Part shown: positions 45,855 through 51,983 of the stretch, in pieces
Layout of the letters: each line of letters opens with the position of its first letter
Position numbering within the stretch: position 1 is the first letter of the stretch
Origin: Rhizobium sp. CF122
GTDB lineage: Bacteria > Pseudomonadota > Alphaproteobacteria > Rhizobiales > Rhizobiaceae
DNA length: 64,000 bases
Direction: 5' to 3'
Assembly: GCF_000282035.1 (NCBI RefSeq)
Contig: NZ_AKKA01000009.1
Span: 1 to 64,000, forward strand
The notes under the pieces: generated by a model
The model's input: the letters and a program-made list of their open reading frames with translations, nothing else
Database searches by the model: none
Told to the model about the DNA's origin: nothing
Position numbers and translations under genes: made by a program

Positions 45855-48800
45855 TCAATTTTCCCCGGATGCAAGCTTGAATGTGTCAGAAAGATCAAAC
45901 CGCGCCGAATTGCTTCGCGGCGTCCAAAGGTGCCGATCGATGGCCTCGAGCAGTCGCTCCTTCATGTCGTCGAAGGCGGCAGGGTTTTTCTCGACTATGA
46001 AATCGCGCACCTTCGGATCGACCACGAAGGCCTGATAGACGGCTTCGAAATGATGATTGCCCACCGCTCCCGTCGTCGCGGCAAAGGCGAAAAGATAATC
46101 GACAGTCGCAGCGATCTCAAAGGCTCCTTTGTAGCCATGGCGAATAACGCCATCGATCCACTTCGGATTAACCACGCGGCCACGCACAACACGCCCGATC
46201 TCCTCTTCCAACGATCGGATGACCGGCTTTTCCGGCCTCGAATGATCGTTGTGGTAGATCGATGGCCGATCGCCCGCCAGCATTTCGGCTGCAGCCGCCA
46301 TCCCGCCCTCGAACTGGTAGTAGTCGTCGCTGTCCAGAAGGTCGTGCTCGCGATTGTCCTGGTTCTGGACGACAGCCTGGATCGAGCGCAGGCGCTCTTC
46401 GAAGACGCCACGCTCCGCCCGGCCCTCTTCGCCGGCACCGTAAGCATAGCTACCCCAGACGAGATAGGCTTCGGCCAGATCGGCGCGACGCTCCCATCCC
46501 TTTTCATCGATCAATGCCTGCAAGCCAGCGCCGTAGGCCCCCGGCTTTGAGCCGAAGATACGATAGCCGGCGCGACGACCCGCTTGCGTCGCGTCCAGAC
46601 CGGCAGCCTCGAGCCGCGCCGCCTCTCCACGCATGCGCTCGGCAATCGGATTGTCCACCGCATCCTCGTCGAGCGCGCCGACCGCACGGACGGCCTTGTC
46701 GAACAGCGCGATCTGTTCGGGAAAGGCATCTCTGAAAAAGCCGGAAATGCGCAACGTCACGTCGACACGCGGGCGGCGCAGCAGCGCCGGCGGAATGACT
46801 TCGTAGCCGGTGACGCGCCGCGAGGTCATGTCCCAGACCGGCTTCACGCCGATCAGGGCCAGAGCCTGTGCAATATCATCGCCGCCGGTGCGCATGTTCG
46901 AAGTGCCCCAGGCGGTCAGGCCGAAGGACACCGGCCATTCGCCGTGATCCTGCACATAGCGGCGGATCAGCAATTCGGCGGACTTCCTCCCTAGCTCGTA
47001 AGCGGCCGGCGTCGGAACCGCGCGGCTGTCGAGCGAGTAAAAGTTTCGCCCAGTCGGCAGTACATCCGGGCGTCCTCGCGTCGGCGCACCCGACGGCCCG
47101 GGCGCCACGAAACGGCCGTCGAGCCCCCGGAGCAGACCTTCGATCTCGGCAGCCCCGCAGGCCAAAATGGCGGGCTTGAGCCGCATTTCGATCTCCGCAA
47201 GCACGGCGCGTGTGGCCTCCCAATCCTCCGGGCAAGCGAACTCGCCTGCGACCAGCCTTGCCGCAAGCAGTTCGATCCGCTCGACAGTATCGCCGTTCGT
47301 TCGCCAGATCGCGTCTGTGGTATCGGCAAGACTATCCGGAAGCGGCCCGGCCCAAGGCTCGGCCATGTCGCAGTCGAGAGGGTCGAAATTCAGGCCGATA
47401 TCTGCGGCAATCGCCCGCTGGAGGCTGCGGTCGCCGTCCTGGCCGAGGCCCCGCGGGACCCGAGCCAATGCCACCGTCAGATCGGTCAGCAATCGGCCCT
47501 GAGGCGAGACGCCGAACACATGCAGGCCATCGCGAATCTGCATCTCCTTGAGGTCGCAGAGATAGGCATCGAGCTTCTTCAGCGCTTCGGTTTCGCTCTC
47601 GCCTTTGTTGATACCGGCATCGCGGTCGAGACCTATGTCCGCCACGAGGTCGAGAATCTGCTTGCTGAGAAGCCGAATGCGGCGCGGATCGCCACCTGAC
47701 GCCTCGTAGTATTCGTCGACCAGCGCCTCCAGATCCTTCAGTGGCCCGTAGCTCTCGGCACGTGTCAGCGGCGGTGTCAGATGGTCGATGATCACGGCGC
47801 CAGCGCGACGCTTCGCCTGAGTTCCCTCGCCGGGATCATTGACGATGAAGGGATAGAGATGCGGCATCGGGCCGAGGATGGCTTCCGGATAGCATTCCTC
47901 GGAGAGCGCCAGCGCCTTGCCCGGCAGCCACTCGAGATTGCCGTGCTTGCCCATGTGGATGACGGCGTGCGCGCCGAACTCGTGGCGAAGGAAAGCGTAG
48001 AAGGCGAGATAGCCGTGCGGCGGCACAAGATCCGGCGAATGATAGCTTTCCTTCGGATCGATGTTGTAGCCCCGCGCCGGCTGGATGCCGACCAGCACCT
48101 CCCCAAGCCGCATGAACGGCAGCGCAAAAGCGCCGTTCAGCACATAGGGATCGGTCTCGGGCGCATCCCAGCGCGCACCGATTTCATCCTGAATCGTTTT
48201 GGGAAGACTTGCGAAGAAAGCTTTGTAACGACTCAAGGAAAGCACTTCGCGGACAAGCTTCCCATCCGTGCCGGAATTTGTCGGGCCTTCCATAAGCCGC
48301 CGGATCAGCGCGTCGCCATCATCCGGCACATCCGCCACTCTATAACCGGCGGCACGCATTGCCTTCAGCACCTCGACGGTGCCGGCAGGCGTGTCCAGCC
48401 CGACGCCATTGCCGAGCCTGCCATCGCGGTTTGGATAGTTGGCCATGACAAGCGCAATGCGCCGGTCGCCGGCAGATGTCGTGCGCAGCGTCGCCCAGTT
48501 GGCAGCAAGCCGGGCCGTATAGTGCATCCGCTCGATATCGGGCTCGCTGCCGACAATGTTGGCCTCGACCCTCGCATCGTAGCGAGCCGCGGATTTGAAG
48601 GAGACCGCGCGGGCAAGCACCCGTCCGTCCACTTCAGGCAGCGCAACATTCATTCCAAGATCGCGCGCGGTGAGGCCCTGCGAGGAGGTGGCCCAGGCCT
48701 GACGCGACGAAGCCGAAAAGATCGCCTGAAGCACGACCGCGTCGTTGGCTTCCAACACGGTCGGTTCACGATCCGCGCCCGGCGCAGATACGGCAAAGCC

Positions 48801-49622
48801 AGTCGTGTTGATCACCACTTCGGGTTTGATGAGGTCAAAGACACTTTCGAGAATGCCCTTCGAGACGGGGTCCTTGAGACTATAGGCAAACACCGGCAGC
48901 GGCCGGATGCCTTCGGCCAGCAGCGTATCGATCAAGGCTTCGACAGGCCTGGTCTCGCCGCTCTGCACGAGCGCCCGATAAAAGCTGACTGCAACGACAG
49001 GCGAATGCGACGCCCCCTGCAGGAATCGAAGCCGCTCATCGCATGCCGCTTTCCACTCCTCGACACCGACGACGCCCTTGCCGGGCCACCAGATCCCGGC
49101 CTTCATCAGCGGCGATGCCGCTTCGGGCTTTTCAGCGCCTGATAGCATCGCGCCGGCATAAGCGAGAAACGCACGTGAATTGGCGTCGCCACCTTCGATG
49201 AGATAGGCCCAGAGGGCATTTAAGTCTTCAAGCGGAACATTCGAAAACGGCGTCAAACCCGCGTCCGGCTTCGAATCTCCCGGCAGTACGGCGATAAGCG
49301 CGCCATGGCGCGCTGCCGCCGCATGAAGCGCCTCGAGTGCATAGTGGAAATAGCTTGCGCCACCCAACGCCCTGACGACGATCAGCTTCGCATGCCGGGC
49401 CGTCCGCTCGATATAGGCGTCGACCGACATCGGATGCTTCAAGCTCATCAGGCTTGCCAGCCGCAGCCCGAAGCCAGCGGCCGCCTCGTCATACGCGGCC
49501 GCCACTGCAGCAAGCTCGGTGTCGGCCGCCGACAAAAAGAGGACATCGCCGGGAGACTGACCGAGATCGATCGCCTCCTCGCCGTCACTTATCGTTCCCT
49601 GCTGTGCCAGGAGCAGATGCAT
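45855..49622 (-). CDS. cobN: Aerobic cobaltochelatase subunit CobN
   Basis: The large subunit of the ATP-dependent chelatase that inserts Co2+ into hydrogenobyrinic acid a,c-diamide together with CobS and CobT (not in this window). 1255 residues, the normal size. BchH/CobN landmarks: PVVAVSFYRALVQSGETRPV, GVGLDTPAGTVEVLKAMRAA, VLVGIQPARGYNIDPKESYH, VIHMGKHGNLEWLPGKALAL, TPAAYELGRKSAELLIRRYV, WGTSNMRTGGDDIAQALALI, and the C-terminal PKWIDGVIRHGYKGAFEIAA. Starts 9 bases after the cobW stop. Confidence 0.97.
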   Translation of the reverse strand: MHLLLAQQGTISDGEEAIDLGQSPGDVLFLSAADTELAAVAAAYDEAAAGFGLRLASLMSLKHPMSVDAYIERTARHAKLIVVRALGGASYFHYALEALHAAAARHGALIAVLPGDSKPDAGLTPFSNVPLEDLNALWAYLIEGGDANSRAFLAYAGAMLSGAEKPEAASPLMKAGIWWPGKGVVGVEEWKAACDERLRFLQGASHSPVVAVSFYRALVQSGETRPVEALIDTLLAEGIRPLPVFAYSLKDPVSKGILESVFDLIKPEVVINTTGFAVSAPGADREPTVLEANDAVVLQAIFSASSRQAWATSSQGLTARDLGMNVALPEVDGRVLARAVSFKSAARYDARVEANIVGSEPDIERMHYTARLAANWATLRTTSAGDRRIALVMANYPNRDGRLGNGVGLDTPAGTVEVLKAMRAAGYRVADVPDDGDALIRRLMEGPTNSGTDGKLVREVLSLSRYKAFFASLPKTIQDEIGARWDAPETDPYVLNGAFALPFMRLGEVLVGIQPARGYNIDPKESYHSPDLVPPHGYLAFYAFLRHEFGAHAVIHMGKHGNLEWLPGKALALSEECYPEAILGPMPHLYPFIVNDPGEGTQAKRRAGAVIIDHLTPPLTRAESYGPLKDLEALVDEYYEASGGDPRRIRLLSKQILDLVADIGLDRDAGINKGESETEALKKLDAYLCDLKEMQIRDGLHVFGVSPQGRLLTDLTVALARVPRGLGQDGDRSLQRAIAADIGLNFDPLDCDMAEPWAGPLPDSLADTTDAIWRTNGDTVERIELLAARLVAGEFACPEDWEATRAVLAEIEMRLKPAILACGAAEIEGLLRGLDGRFVAPGPSGAPTRGRPDVLPTGRNFYSLDSRAVPTPAAYELGRKSAELLIRRYVQDHGEWPVSFGLTAWGTSNMRTGGDDIAQALALIGVKPVWDMTSRRVTGYEVIPPALLRRPRVDVTLRISGFFRDAFPEQIALFDKAVRAVGALDEDAVDNPIAERMRGEAARLEAAGLDATQAGRRAGYRIFGSKPGAYGAGLQALIDEKGWERRADLAEAYLVWGSYAYGAGEEGRAERGVFEERLRSIQAVVQNQDNREHDLLDSDDYYQFEGGMAAAAEMLAGDRPSIYHNDHSRPEKPVIRSLEEEIGRVVRGRVVNPKWIDGVIRHGYKGAFEIAATVDYLFAFAATTGAVGNHHFEAVYQAFVVDPKVRDFIVEKNPAAFDDMKERLLEAIDRHLWTPRSNSARFDLSDTFKLASGEN

Positions 49623-49631
49623 TGGTCTGCC

Positions 49632-50690
49632 TTATGCCAGCGCTTCTATCGCCTTGCGCACCGCCGCTTCGTCCATCTCGTGCAGGCCGATGACGACCAG
49701 GCGGGTACCGCGCGCTTCGCCGGGCGCCCAGGCGCGATCGAAATAGTGGTCGATGCGGGTTCCAACCGCCTGGACTTGCAGGCGCATCGGCTTGCCAGGA
49801 ACATCGACGAATCCCTTGAGGCGCAGCACGTCATGCTGGCCGATGATCGACTTCAACGCGCCCACGAAGGCGGCAGGATCGGCAACGGGGCCGAGTTCCA
49901 CGACAAAGCTGTCGAACTCGTCGTGGTCGTGCGGTACGCCGTCCTGGTGCTCGAGTTCATGATGGGACTTGCGGTTGACTACATCGTCTTCGGTACCGAC
50001 GCCGAGCCCGAGCAGCACGCTCGCCGGAACCTCGCCATTGCGTGCCTCGATCATGACAGGCTTGCGGGCAATACGGGAAGCGACCTCGTCGCGCACGCGA
50101 CCGAGGCCTGCCGCATCGAGAAGATCGGTCTTGTTGAGCACGATCAGATCGGCGCAGGTCAGTTGATCCTCGAAAAGCTCCTCGATCGGGCTTTCGTGGT
50201 CGAGCGACTCGTCCTCCACGCGGCGGGCCTCGACGGCATCGTGATCGTCGGCAAAGCGCCCGGCGGCAACGGCGGCGCTATCGACGACGGTGACCACGCC
50301 ATCGACGGTGACCTGCGTGCGGATGTCGGGCCAGTTGAAGGCGGCAACGAGCGGCTGGGGCAGCGCGAGGCCGGAGGTTTCGATGACGATGTGGTCGGGG
50401 CGCTGTTCGCGTTCCAAAAGCTTCGTCATCGTCGGAATGAAGTCGTCGGCAACCGTGCAGCAGATGCAGCCATTGGTGAGCTCGATGATATCGTCCTCGG
50501 TGCAGTTTTCGGCGCCGCAGCCCTTGAGCACCTCGCCGTCGACGCCGAGATCGCCGAACTCGTTGATAATCAGCGCGATCTTCTTGCCGTTCGTATTGGA
50601 AAGCAGATTGCGGATCATCGTCGTCTTGCCGGCGCCGAGAAAGCCGGTGATCACGGTCGCCGGGATTTTCTGCTGGTTCATGAAATTCAA
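49632..50690 (-). CDS. cobW: COG0523 GTPase CobW
   Basis: A putative metallochaperone GTPase of the cobalamin pathway, 352 residues. P-loop [18 protein letters not shown], metal motif [12 protein letters not shown], and a canonical NKTD ([11 protein letters not shown]), unlike ZigA elsewhere in the window. A His/Asp-rich linker ([18 protein letters not shown]) before the C-domain could hold cobalt or zinc. The position between cobP and cobN behind the cobalamin riboswitch supports a role in cobalt delivery. Its ATG overlaps the cobP stop. Confidence 0.95.
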
Positions 50691-51211
50691 CCCTTCATCT
50701 TCAGCGGCAGACCTGCCGCGATAAAATACACATCCGCGGCTTCAGCCGCGATCATTTGATGCAAGCGGCCGGCATGATCCCGGAACTCCCGCGCCATGCG
50801 GTTTTCCGGAACGATGCCCAGACCGACCTCATTGGAAACGATGACGAGGCGCGCACGCGCCGTAGGCACGTACGCGGCAAGCGAGGCGAACTCTGCCCCA
50901 ATGTCGCGCTGCTCCATCATCAGATTGGTGACCCAAAGCGTCAGGCAATCGACAAGGATCGCCCGCCCCTCGCCGTCGATCGCCCGCAGGCATCCGACAA
51001 GATCGAGCGGTTCTTCCTGGGTATGCCACAGATGGCCACGATCGGCTTTGTGCTTGTCGATCCGGACGCGCATCTCGTCGTCCCAAGCCCGGCCCGTTGC
51101 CACATAATGGCGCTCCAGACCGGTCGAAACGACCAACTGCTCGGCAAAACGTGATTTTCCAGAGCGCGCACCGCCCAAGACGAAGGTCGCGCCGGATGAT
51201 ATCGGGCTCAT
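50687..51211 (-). CDS. cobP: Adenosylcobinamide kinase/adenosylcobinamide-phosphate guanylyltransferase
   Basis: A bifunctional nucleotide-loop assembly enzyme, 174 residues (CobU type). P-loop [17 protein letters not shown] at the N-terminus; the guanylylated His lies in [31 protein letters not shown] and [20 protein letters not shown] follow. It is the first enzyme gene after the cobalamin riboswitch; its ATG overlaps the stop of a 29-codon leader ORF (ATGA), so its translation may depend on that ORF. Confidence 0.95.
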
Positions 51212-51297
51212 GGAAAGTACTGTCCGATCTGCGGAAGTCTTCCGCGAGAAGCCGGAGCGGCTGCAAAACGCAGCCGGAAAATCTCTCTTTCAGCCAT
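51208..51297 (-). CDS. 29-residue leader ORF between riboswitch and cobP
   Basis: ATG 51297 with a near-perfect GGAGG Shine-Dalgarno 6 bases upstream; it encodes [20 protein letters not shown] then LPQIGQYFP, and its TGA overlaps the cobP ATG. The coding RNA can fold into two hairpins, GGCTGC-GTTTT-GCAGCC and GCGGAAG-A-CTTCCGC. cobP itself has no independent strong Shine-Dalgarno. This suggests translational coupling downstream of riboswitch control. I do not recognise the peptide. Confidence 0.6.
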
Positions 51298-51346
51298 GAC
51301 AACCTCCGTGCTGGCAGCGGGCATCGCCCAGGAATGGGCTGTTCGC

Positions 51347-51606
51347 CCGGCACGATTGGCAGGTCTCCTGGCTCGCGGATTTTAGCCGCGATCGGGGCAG
51401 ACCGGAAACCGGTCGCCCAGATCGTGCTAGCGGATCTTCCTCGCCTTCCCGGCTGCATTTCATGAAAAGGCGGACGATTCGTAGACGTAAGAGGCGTCCA
51501 GCCCCGGTTGATCATGATGCACTGCCAGTGACTTTTCCGTCGCCGCTTCCGCGCCGCCCGCCTGCACTATTGCAGACCGTCAACCACGGGGAACCAACGC
51601 CGGACG
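51347..51606 (-). ncRNA. Cobalamin (AdoCbl) riboswitch of the cobP-cobW-cobN-cobO unit
   Basis: On the minus strand the 5' end CCGGCGTTGGTTCCCC pairs with the 3' end CCAATCGTGCCGG to close P1. Conserved parts are visible: GTCACTGG near 51530, GCCGGGAAGGCG near 51450, and the hallmark GAGCCAGGAGACCTGCC at about 51359-51375. An extra peripheral arm (about 51385-51435: TAGC..GACCGG-TTT-CCGGTC..GCTA) is inserted just before the 3' core. B12 binding would repress the downstream genes. Small hairpins between its end and the leader ORF may form the expression platform. Confidence 0.85.
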
Positions 51607-51983
51607 GAAAACCCTGACCGCTCTACAGTCGCGGGGTCGGCTATGATGACGGTGCCCGGATTGGGTCCACCGCTTCACATTCCCTTTTCATCCGTACCGA
51701 TTCAACCGGTCCGGAACCATCCGTTATGAAGTCATCGTTAGGCAAGGCCACTGGCGAAGTCAATCGTGAGCCATCACTCACGACAACGACGTTGCATGCC
51801 TCGGGCCGCGGTCAAGACGACCTTCTCTACCATATTTATCGTCTTTTATCAGTGGCTTACGTCACAAATAATTGTTGCTAGCGCCGGTCTTTTGCCGCAA
51901 TTGCATCGCAAGCGGGTCGCGCCACTGATTGCCCTTCCCCTCACCGCACTTGACCGCACCAGCGCCCGCCTAGTTTCTCTGCC
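51607..51983. promoter_or_regulatory. Divergent upstream region of riboswitch transcript and ClC gene
   Basis: About 375 bases with no convincing ORF. It must contain the promoters for the cob transcript (minus) and the ClC gene (plus). No clear sigma-70 boxes or repeats could be named by eye. Confidence 0.4.

Follow-up and report, generated by a model that had tools for sequence, protein, structure and literature searches.

The B12 riboswitch of Mycobacterium tuberculosis ppe2 has as its first target an upstream ORF (uORF), uPPE2, which shares an AUGA overlap with ppe2 (Kipkorir et al. 2024, PMC11260477). Reporter data in that study showed ppe2 production to proceed mainly by termination-reinitiation. 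The abstract of a study on the SAM-II riboswitch of Sinorhizobium meliloti metA reports that translation starts 74 nt downstream, at the in-frame AUG2 (Scheuer et al. 2022, PMC9373788). Other B12 riboswitches mask a ribosome site through an L5-L13 kissing loop, as outlined in part of a review (PMC8123684). A riboswitch is usually assigned to whichever annotated gene follows it. Here we describe a B12 riboswitch of Rhizobium sp. CF122 for which comparison with related loci points to a short ORF as the target.

A short ORF lies between the cobalamin riboswitch and cobP

We analyzed a 64,000-nt stretch of the Rhizobium sp. CF122 genome (contig NZ_AKKA01000009.1, positions 1 to 64,000), referred to below as the window. 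The features of the locus are all on the minus strand:

51341..51736, minus strand: cobalamin riboswitch aptamer, RF00174 (Rfam match 50.4 bits, gathering score 31.5)
51632..51637, minus strand: aptamer loop ACCCCG, which we take to be L5, positioned from the Rfam structure line; proposed partner of the ORF Shine-Dalgarno loop (read from sequence; ACCCCG context in 146/148 loci with a B12 box and start region)
51358..51374, minus strand: B12 box GAGCCAGGAGACCTGCC, read from sequence
51293..51315, minus strand: start-region hairpin GCCAGCACGGAGGTTGTCATGGC, proposed and presumably L13; its loop is the Shine-Dalgarno sequence and its 3' side the ORF start codon
51303..51307, minus strand: leader ORF Shine-Dalgarno sequence GGAGG, 5 nt before the ATG
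51208..51297, minus strand: leader (adaptor) ORF of 29 codons, ATG at 51297, TGA at 51210-51208
51258..51276, minus strand: hairpin CGGCTGC-GTTTT-GCAGCCG within the ORF; hairpins of differing sequence recur close to this position
51231..51245, minus strand: second in-ORF hairpin GCGGAAG...CTTCCGC, predicted fold, window only
51208..51211, minus strand: ATGA, the cobP start and leader ORF stop overlapped, read from sequence
50687..51211, minus strand: cobP (CobU family), ATG at 51211-51209; CobU/CobP PF02283, E 1e-60
49632..50690, minus strand: cobW, frame overlapping the end of cobP; start codon uncertain
45855..49622, minus strand: cobN, after cobW

RF00174 is the sole Rfam match at gathering score in the whole window, and the order downstream of it is leader ORF, cobP, cobW and cobN. 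The original prediction had described a 29-codon ORF at 51208-51297 that bridges the riboswitch and cobP and overlaps the cobP ATG. Its coordinates and description were correct, with the TGA at 51210-51208 contributing to a shared ATGA. Within the cobP frame, 51211 is the first start codon after the preceding stop. The leader ORF could also be read from an in-frame ATG at 51324, giving 38 codons, but the conserved start region belongs to 51297. CobP of the window is 92% identical to its counterpart in Rhizobium altiplani, 93% to that of R. cauense and 89% to that of R. mesoamericanum.

The aptamer match spans 396 nt and includes a stretch of about 209 nt in one peripheral part where the model has 32 positions. 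Sixteen of the 20 uORF loci that we scanned are at or above the RF00174 gathering score. The loci L036, L085, L116 and L122 fall below it, yet all four contain a B12 box. Match length is 351-400 nt in 14 of the 16 related loci reaching the Rfam score, with shorter matches in L131 (234 nt) and L029 (150 nt).

The ORF has a conserved start region and a strong Shine-Dalgarno sequence

We assembled 110 cobP loci by combining 30, the window's own among them, with 80 from Rhizobium/Rhizobiales records; some species occur in both sets. The start region GCCAGCACGGAGGTTGTC-NTG-GC was found upstream of cobP in 110/110 loci (Rhizobium and close kin, window included) with up to 4 substitutions allowed anywhere in the pattern. 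Its start codon is ATG, GTG or TTG in all 90 rows from Rhizobium and close kin that are distinct over the sequence from the start region onward, and the statement applies to those rows because the search pattern used for other genera admitted only A/G/TTG starts.

The ORF was claimed to have a far better Shine-Dalgarno sequence than cobP, and predicted pairing with the 16S tail, the letters of which we assumed, bears this out. In the window the predicted energies are -10.1 kcal/mol for the ORF and -3.2 kcal/mol for cobP, while random 18-mers of the locus average -2.8 kcal/mol. The ORF outscores cobP in 99 of 100 loci. A uORF relay is expected to combine a strong Shine-Dalgarno sequence at the uORF with a weak one at the main gene, and this is the pattern found. 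A minority of loci have a fair Shine-Dalgarno sequence at cobP (mean -5.2, 5th percentile -9.5 kcal/mol; L106 -10.8 kcal/mol). Predicted openness averaged 0.30 at the ORF start and 0.36 at the cobP start, and was higher at the ORF in only 29 of 100 loci. Burial of the cobP start was therefore left unsupported, as openness at the ORF start is not above that at the cobP start. The predicted fold of the window pairs the ORF start (CAUGG) with the cobP start (CCAUG), a pairing that did not look general because other clades differ in the letters before the cobP ATG. Both hairpins that had been proposed for the ORF were predicted, although the region as a whole folds no better than shuffled sequences (z -0.83).

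The predicted fold of the start region, GCCA-GCA-[CGGAGGU]-UGU-CA-UGGC, places the Shine-Dalgarno sequence in the loop and the AUG in the stem. In a pairing test on 38 of 66 distinct start regions, 89.1% of cells pair, compared with at most 52.3% for slid partners. The covariation score of the hairpin (0.109 vs 0.070) was reached by 0/500 shuffles. Three of its pairs change on both sides, two of them in the L166 stem; with 2-4 such pairs in slid controls, double changes by themselves are no proof of this hairpin. The L5 sequence ACCCCG can form 6 bp with CGG(A)GGU, with the A bulged. This contact is beyond the reach of covariation because both sides are nearly invariant. RNAalifold, applied to 49 of the 51 stretches listed after six divergent loci had been left out, favors a different structure, with 11 bp between the B12 box and the start region. 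The proposal that the riboswitch acts on the ORF gains support from the conserved hairpin, which holds the Shine-Dalgarno sequence and start codon of the ORF and not those of cobP, and from a frame that ends at cobP. We infer that the riboswitch couples cobP to translation of the ORF.

The reading frame stays open to the cobP start

Loci from Rhizobium and its kin have an open frame of 17-137 codons running from the start codon towards cobP. Adding other genera gives 104 distinct ORF loci of 14-137 codons, and 100 of them terminate no more than 25 nt from the cobP start. This count combines 98 scripted loci with L069 and L078, which were corrected by hand because the list of starts ended before their ATG. 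In all our stop-distance counts, the cluster test and the further other-genus set below included, cobP was taken to begin at the in-frame start closest to the ORF stop, a choice that somewhat favors the claim. A start codon one base before the stop was found at 61 of the 104 loci (57 ATGA, 3 TTGA and 1 GTGA), and stop-NNN-start, with 3 nt between, at 20. The other near-cobP stops range from 19 nt before to 17 nt after the cobP start. Further ORF loci from other genera have the stop within 25 nt of cobP in 24 of 26 cases, and ORFs as short as 13 codons in the other-genus set still end in ATGA. Some loci stop 12-28 nt ahead of cobP, L255 ending 28 nt short. Termination at the cobP start holds for Rhizobium and for nearly all loci of 14 other genus codes; the short ORF is present in 15 genus codes of one bacterial family. 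ORF and cobP overlap in most clades and are in frame, with an intervening stop, in the R. tropici group.

We grouped the ORFs into 34 sequence clusters (single linkage, 65% identity; some dependence remains) and compared them with ORF bodies shuffled with dinucleotides kept, scoring the first in-frame stop. Shuffling predicts a stop within 25 nt of the cobP start in 10.9 clusters, and 30 have one (P ~5e-17); each of the other two frames has one in 5 clusters. Among the 98 loci ending near cobP, 39 have at least 130 nt to cover; frame 1 is open in 6 of these and frame 2 in 2, with frame 0 open by row selection. Loss of the reading frame had been named as an outcome that would refute the original prediction, and it was not seen: frame and stop are kept in 30/34 clusters. 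The evolutionary retention of a uORF stop at the start of the main gene, a second hallmark of uORF relays, is thus present.

The four clusters whose ORF does not end near the cobP start are those of L080, L158, L125 and L129, and each has an additional ORF ahead of cobP. L080 has an early stop whose ATGA opens a 76-codon ORF, which itself ends in the cobP ATGA. A 34-codon second ORF in L158 begins 17 nt after the first stop begins and also ends in the cobP ATGA. An ORF of about 105 codons stands between the adaptor ORF and cobP in L125, where it is met by ATGA, and one of about 89 codons in L129 is reached through a further 10-codon ORF. In L252 the adaptor leads by ATGA into an 85-codon ORF similar to those of L125 and L129, with its end immediately ahead of cobP. 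The intervening ORFs of these three loci have a hydrophobic stretch near the start and GGLY near the end. Loci of the R. leguminosarum/etli type have acquired repeats in the ORF without interruption of its frame. In L044, L057, L082 and similar loci the adaptor ORF contains repeats such as GGATTCCTGTGACAAGCACAGGAATGAGGG as well as CTCCCC...GGGGAG elements, and its frame likewise stays open.

The open frame is conserved rather than the peptide

Conservation of an 11-residue stretch of the peptide upstream of cobP had been suggested as a check; beyond the closest relatives the stretch is not conserved. Near the peptide start MA is recurrent and an acidic residue frequent, with nothing shared after the first few codons. 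The recurrent MA can be explained by the hairpin stem, which contains UGGC. In five clusters with at least 5 members, pN/pS of the ORF body (uncorrected proportions) is 1.03, 0.91, 0.88, 1.00 and 0.86, and cobP in the same genomes gives 0.15-0.27. One of two 3-member clusters had no synonymous change and hence no ratio; the other gave 0.95. The 10 same-length ORFs of the window's cluster have a pN/pS of 0.76, and weak constraint on the peptide may act in this cluster. Because pN/pS is near 1 but the frame and its end are kept, the translated path appears to be selected and not the product. The comparison across loci shows selection keeping an open frame from a fixed start region to the cobP start, with the peptide as an apparent by-product.

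A hairpin often occupies a set position within the ORF

The in-ORF hairpin is formed by unrelated sequences across loci and in most cases begins 17-24 nt downstream of the first base of the start codon. We used a position-fixed shuffle test that considered 5' arms beginning 16-28 nt downstream of that base. The hairpin reached p <=0.1 in 22 of 34 cluster representatives and 61 of 104 loci, compared with 3 of 21 cbtB genes and 7 of 104 cobP starts as controls. A later set gave 18/26 ORFs and 2/8 cbtB genes. Plain folding-energy z scores are weak (mean -0.34; cobP control +0.21, cbtB control +0.10). Placement of the hairpin goes with the ORF start, and in 13-codon ORFs it nearly reaches cobP. 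Runs of T are few: over the 8 nt that follow, 14 of 71 hairpins show 4 or 5 T and none shows more. An intrinsic terminator in the ORF was set aside given how few U-runs there are. An amino-acid leader-peptide attenuator does not match the data either, with pN/pS near 1 and no hairpin followed by >5 T in the next 8 nt. Our guesses are that the hairpin keeps the start region free of other pairings or slows the first ribosome or polymerase.

The ORF start site corresponds to the cbtB start site of relatives

We examined 60 loci hand-chosen from among the matches listed, 52 from the same family and 8 from the order. Eighteen of them have the B12 box and start region within about 1 kb. From the other 42, we refetched with 3 kb the 20 with a CbtA-like end before cobP and left out 22, at least 2 of which (L159, L162) look CbtA-bearing before cobP. 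All 20 refetched loci, which belong to other genera, have a B12 box followed 69-108 nt on by CACGGAGGTTGNNATG and a 57-63 aa protein ending like CbtB. We initially presumed these proteins to be CbtB; all eight that were then checked match PF09489. CbtA and then cobP lie downstream of CbtB in the same 20 loci, with the CbtA frame of L188 running off the stretch, and a PF09490 CbtA adjoins cobP in 8/8 cbtB-type genomes searched. L166 has the same cbtB-type reading. Another 40 hand-chosen loci divided into 26 with the ORF, 8 with cbtB behind the start region, 2 with a long CbtA-like frame before cobP and 4 with neither. At the level of sequence, the comparison shows that the start site of the leader ORF is the cbtB start site of its relatives. 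The interpretation offered in the original prediction was supported as far as it went; the role of this start region at cbtB in sister genera had gone unseen.

A quick cobP tree of 98 rows requires 11 changes of the ORF label, only 2 of them forced by well-supported branches. In one genus, the ORF locus G347 lies inside the cbtBA loci G244 and G164 (support 96; cobP tree). We fetched 14 relocated CbtA regions in all. In five of them (L306-L309, L311), from ORF-type genomes, the relocated cbtBA has a riboswitch of its own together with the start region found at cobP; L310 has the riboswitch but lacks the start region. The start region is absent at cbtBA of five Rhizobium regions (L305, L314-L317), which have another CbtB type, and of L312, L313 and L318. 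The second cbtB-cbtA locus L305 (G000:C112:19100-21300) encodes this other CbtB type (PF09489, 41 bits) and lies near a weak RF00174 match of 26.4 bits. L315, the matching region in G012, has RF01482 AdoCbl at 52.5 bits.

CbtA is encoded elsewhere in the genome in 9/9 Rhizobium genomes searched. Among 13 uORF genomes of other genera, 8 have a full-length CbtA away from cobP, 4 have none, and in G347 the match is limited to 35 positions at a contig end. Genome-wide loss of cbtA, tried as a prediction of the adaptor idea, does not hold in general on these counts. We therefore reworded the idea from loss to cbtBA no longer standing before cobP. The adaptor ORF was probably kept in such places more than once. 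In the simplest reading, the output of the switch was built around the cbtB start, a direction of change that we infer.

A second B12 riboswitch of the genome is also followed by a short ORF

A second B12 riboswitch (L275, G000:C33:33696-34709 and upstream) precedes a gene that reads like a substrate-binding protein. A short ORF follows this riboswitch too, with a purine-rich site ahead of it (MIDLSLRRYRAHIRLDWVFRR). We fetched 30 loci, our own included, and all 22 with a B12 box (L275-L296) have an ORF of 21-31 codons. A gap of 37-139 nt separates the end of these ORFs from the closest start codon of the gene. Eleven of the 22 peptides include IRLDW, and the underlying DNA, CTCGATTGG, is largely complementary to GATCCAATC just past the B12 box. 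The likely L13 of this switch has the loop GGGGAT on a CCGGGC/GCCCGG stem (L112 and the upstream region of L275). The Shine-Dalgarno sequence of the second switch lies after this hairpin, whereas that of the cobP switch lies in the loop.

A probable translational relay from riboswitch to cobP

We consider it very probable that the riboswitch operates a translational relay, controlling an adaptor ORF whose ribosomes reach cobP. With coenzyme B12 bound, L5 would dock on the hairpin loop (51315-51293) that contains the Shine-Dalgarno sequence of the ORF, with the AUG held in the stem. When the ligand is absent, the ORF would be translated, and ribosomes would stop at the TGA overlapping the cobP AUG and restart there. 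Expression of cobP, and then of cobW and cobN, would thereby follow the switch.

The same ribosomes could serve mainly to keep Rho off the leader, in which case the switch would act on transcription by way of leader translation and cobP would be started independently. ORFs of up to 137 codons that stay open through inserted repeats, cobP genes with their own Shine-Dalgarno sequence and stops up to 28 nt short of cobP are all consistent with this anti-polarity role. The stops nevertheless cluster at the cobP start, 61 of 104 with the one-base-offset overlap, and 13-codon ORFs also end in ATGA, a precision that leader coverage alone would not need. We regard this account as possible but unlikely; it is compatible with the relay, not exclusive of it. 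An ORF that is fortuitous, or a neutral leftover of the cbtB start, would leave the riboswitch to control cobP directly or by transcription termination. Its peptide would be expected to be hardly conserved, as observed, and the start region would be kept anyway if it were part of the fold of the switch. The frame and stop position kept in 30/34 clusters (P 5e-17), the restriction of start codons to A/G/TTG in 90/90, the two exceptions bridged by a second ORF and the small number of in-ORF hairpins with a U-run after them argue against this explanation and make it improbable.

The remaining explanations assign a role to the ORF product. A functional regulatory or leader peptide would fit an ORF that is probably translated, the MA and frequent acidic residue near its start, and the pN/pS of 0.76 in same-length members of the window's cluster. 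However, pN/pS is near 1 in all larger clusters, lengths vary from 13 to 137 codons with no common sequence after the first few codons, and MA is accounted for by UGGC in the hairpin stem, so that a functional peptide seems very improbable. Frameshifting at the ATGA could instead turn the ORF into an N-terminal extension of CobP, and the portion of the ppe2 study that we cite describes a minor fusion product of this kind for uPPE2-PPE2 (PMC11260477). We find this scarcely credible for cobP, since the peptide is unconserved and the frame relation differs between clades, with overlap in most and an in-frame arrangement with a stop between in the R. tropici group.

Under the translational relay, the adaptor ORF would keep the old riboswitch output connected to cobP where cbtBA no longer lies between them. 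We lean towards a broader model in which the B12 riboswitch of Rhizobium and its relatives is a cassette hard-wired to the cbtB start region. In this model cbtBA left its place before cobP in several lineages separately, and selection then shaped and maintained an adaptor ORF, unconstrained in sequence and length, whose only task is to carry ribosomes to cobP. Many adaptors would also contain a hairpin at a fixed spacing from the start codon, and broken adaptors would have been bridged by a second ORF. If true, this would be selection for the act of translation without selection for its product. The cbtB comparison suggests how such ORFs can arise, and the ORFs of 13-137 codons form a natural series for probing what translational coupling needs.

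Comparison with known systems

We found no uORF described at a rhizobial cobP or cbtB riboswitch among the matches listed in the open full-text literature, a scope outside which most subscription journals lie. A word search of the main text of an S. meliloti Ribo-seq paper, as far as that text was covered, did not return cobP. Within the literature searched, the breadth of the ORF, its free sequence and length, the start shared with cbtB, the double relays and the in-ORF hairpin are new.

The riboswitch-cbtB-cbtA-cobP operons of other genera in the same family share the aptamer loop, hairpin, start region and B12-box spacing with our locus, and have cobP downstream. Their first ORF, in contrast, is a real CbtB followed by cbtA, and a positioned hairpin after the start codon is rare there. 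The metA SAM-II riboswitch resembles the cobP switch in being an alphaproteobacterial riboswitch whose controlled Shine-Dalgarno sequence serves a start codon further downstream, but the abstract of that study mentions no relay ORF (PMC9373788). The off-state pairing that we propose is like that of the L5-L13 kissing-loop switches, although the masked site in the part of the review considered here is that of the controlled gene and in our locus that of an adaptor ORF (PMC8123684).

The closest precedent is the ppe2 riboswitch, which as presented in the sections of the source cited here (PMC11260477) is similar in several respects. Both loci have a B12 aptamer, a main gene without an obvious Shine-Dalgarno sequence and an AUGA overlap, the ppe2 operon including cobQ/cobU, and the Shine-Dalgarno sequence and start region of the short ORF, which at ppe2 lie in the hairpin carrying the likely partner of L5, may be placed in the same way at cobP. 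The ppe2 switch belongs to another phylum and has a compact, class IIb-like aptamer, whereas the match here is 396 nt long with a stretch of about 209 nt, and so lacks the compact aptamer without a long extension that characterizes the class IIb ppe2 type. The rhizobial locus would thus work like the ppe2 relay, but we do not file it as a ppe2-type element. Compared with what those sections describe for uPPE2, the rhizobial ORF, as predicted from sequence, spans many genera, is free in sequence and length, shares its start with cbtB, often has a positioned internal hairpin and in places forms a two-ORF relay.
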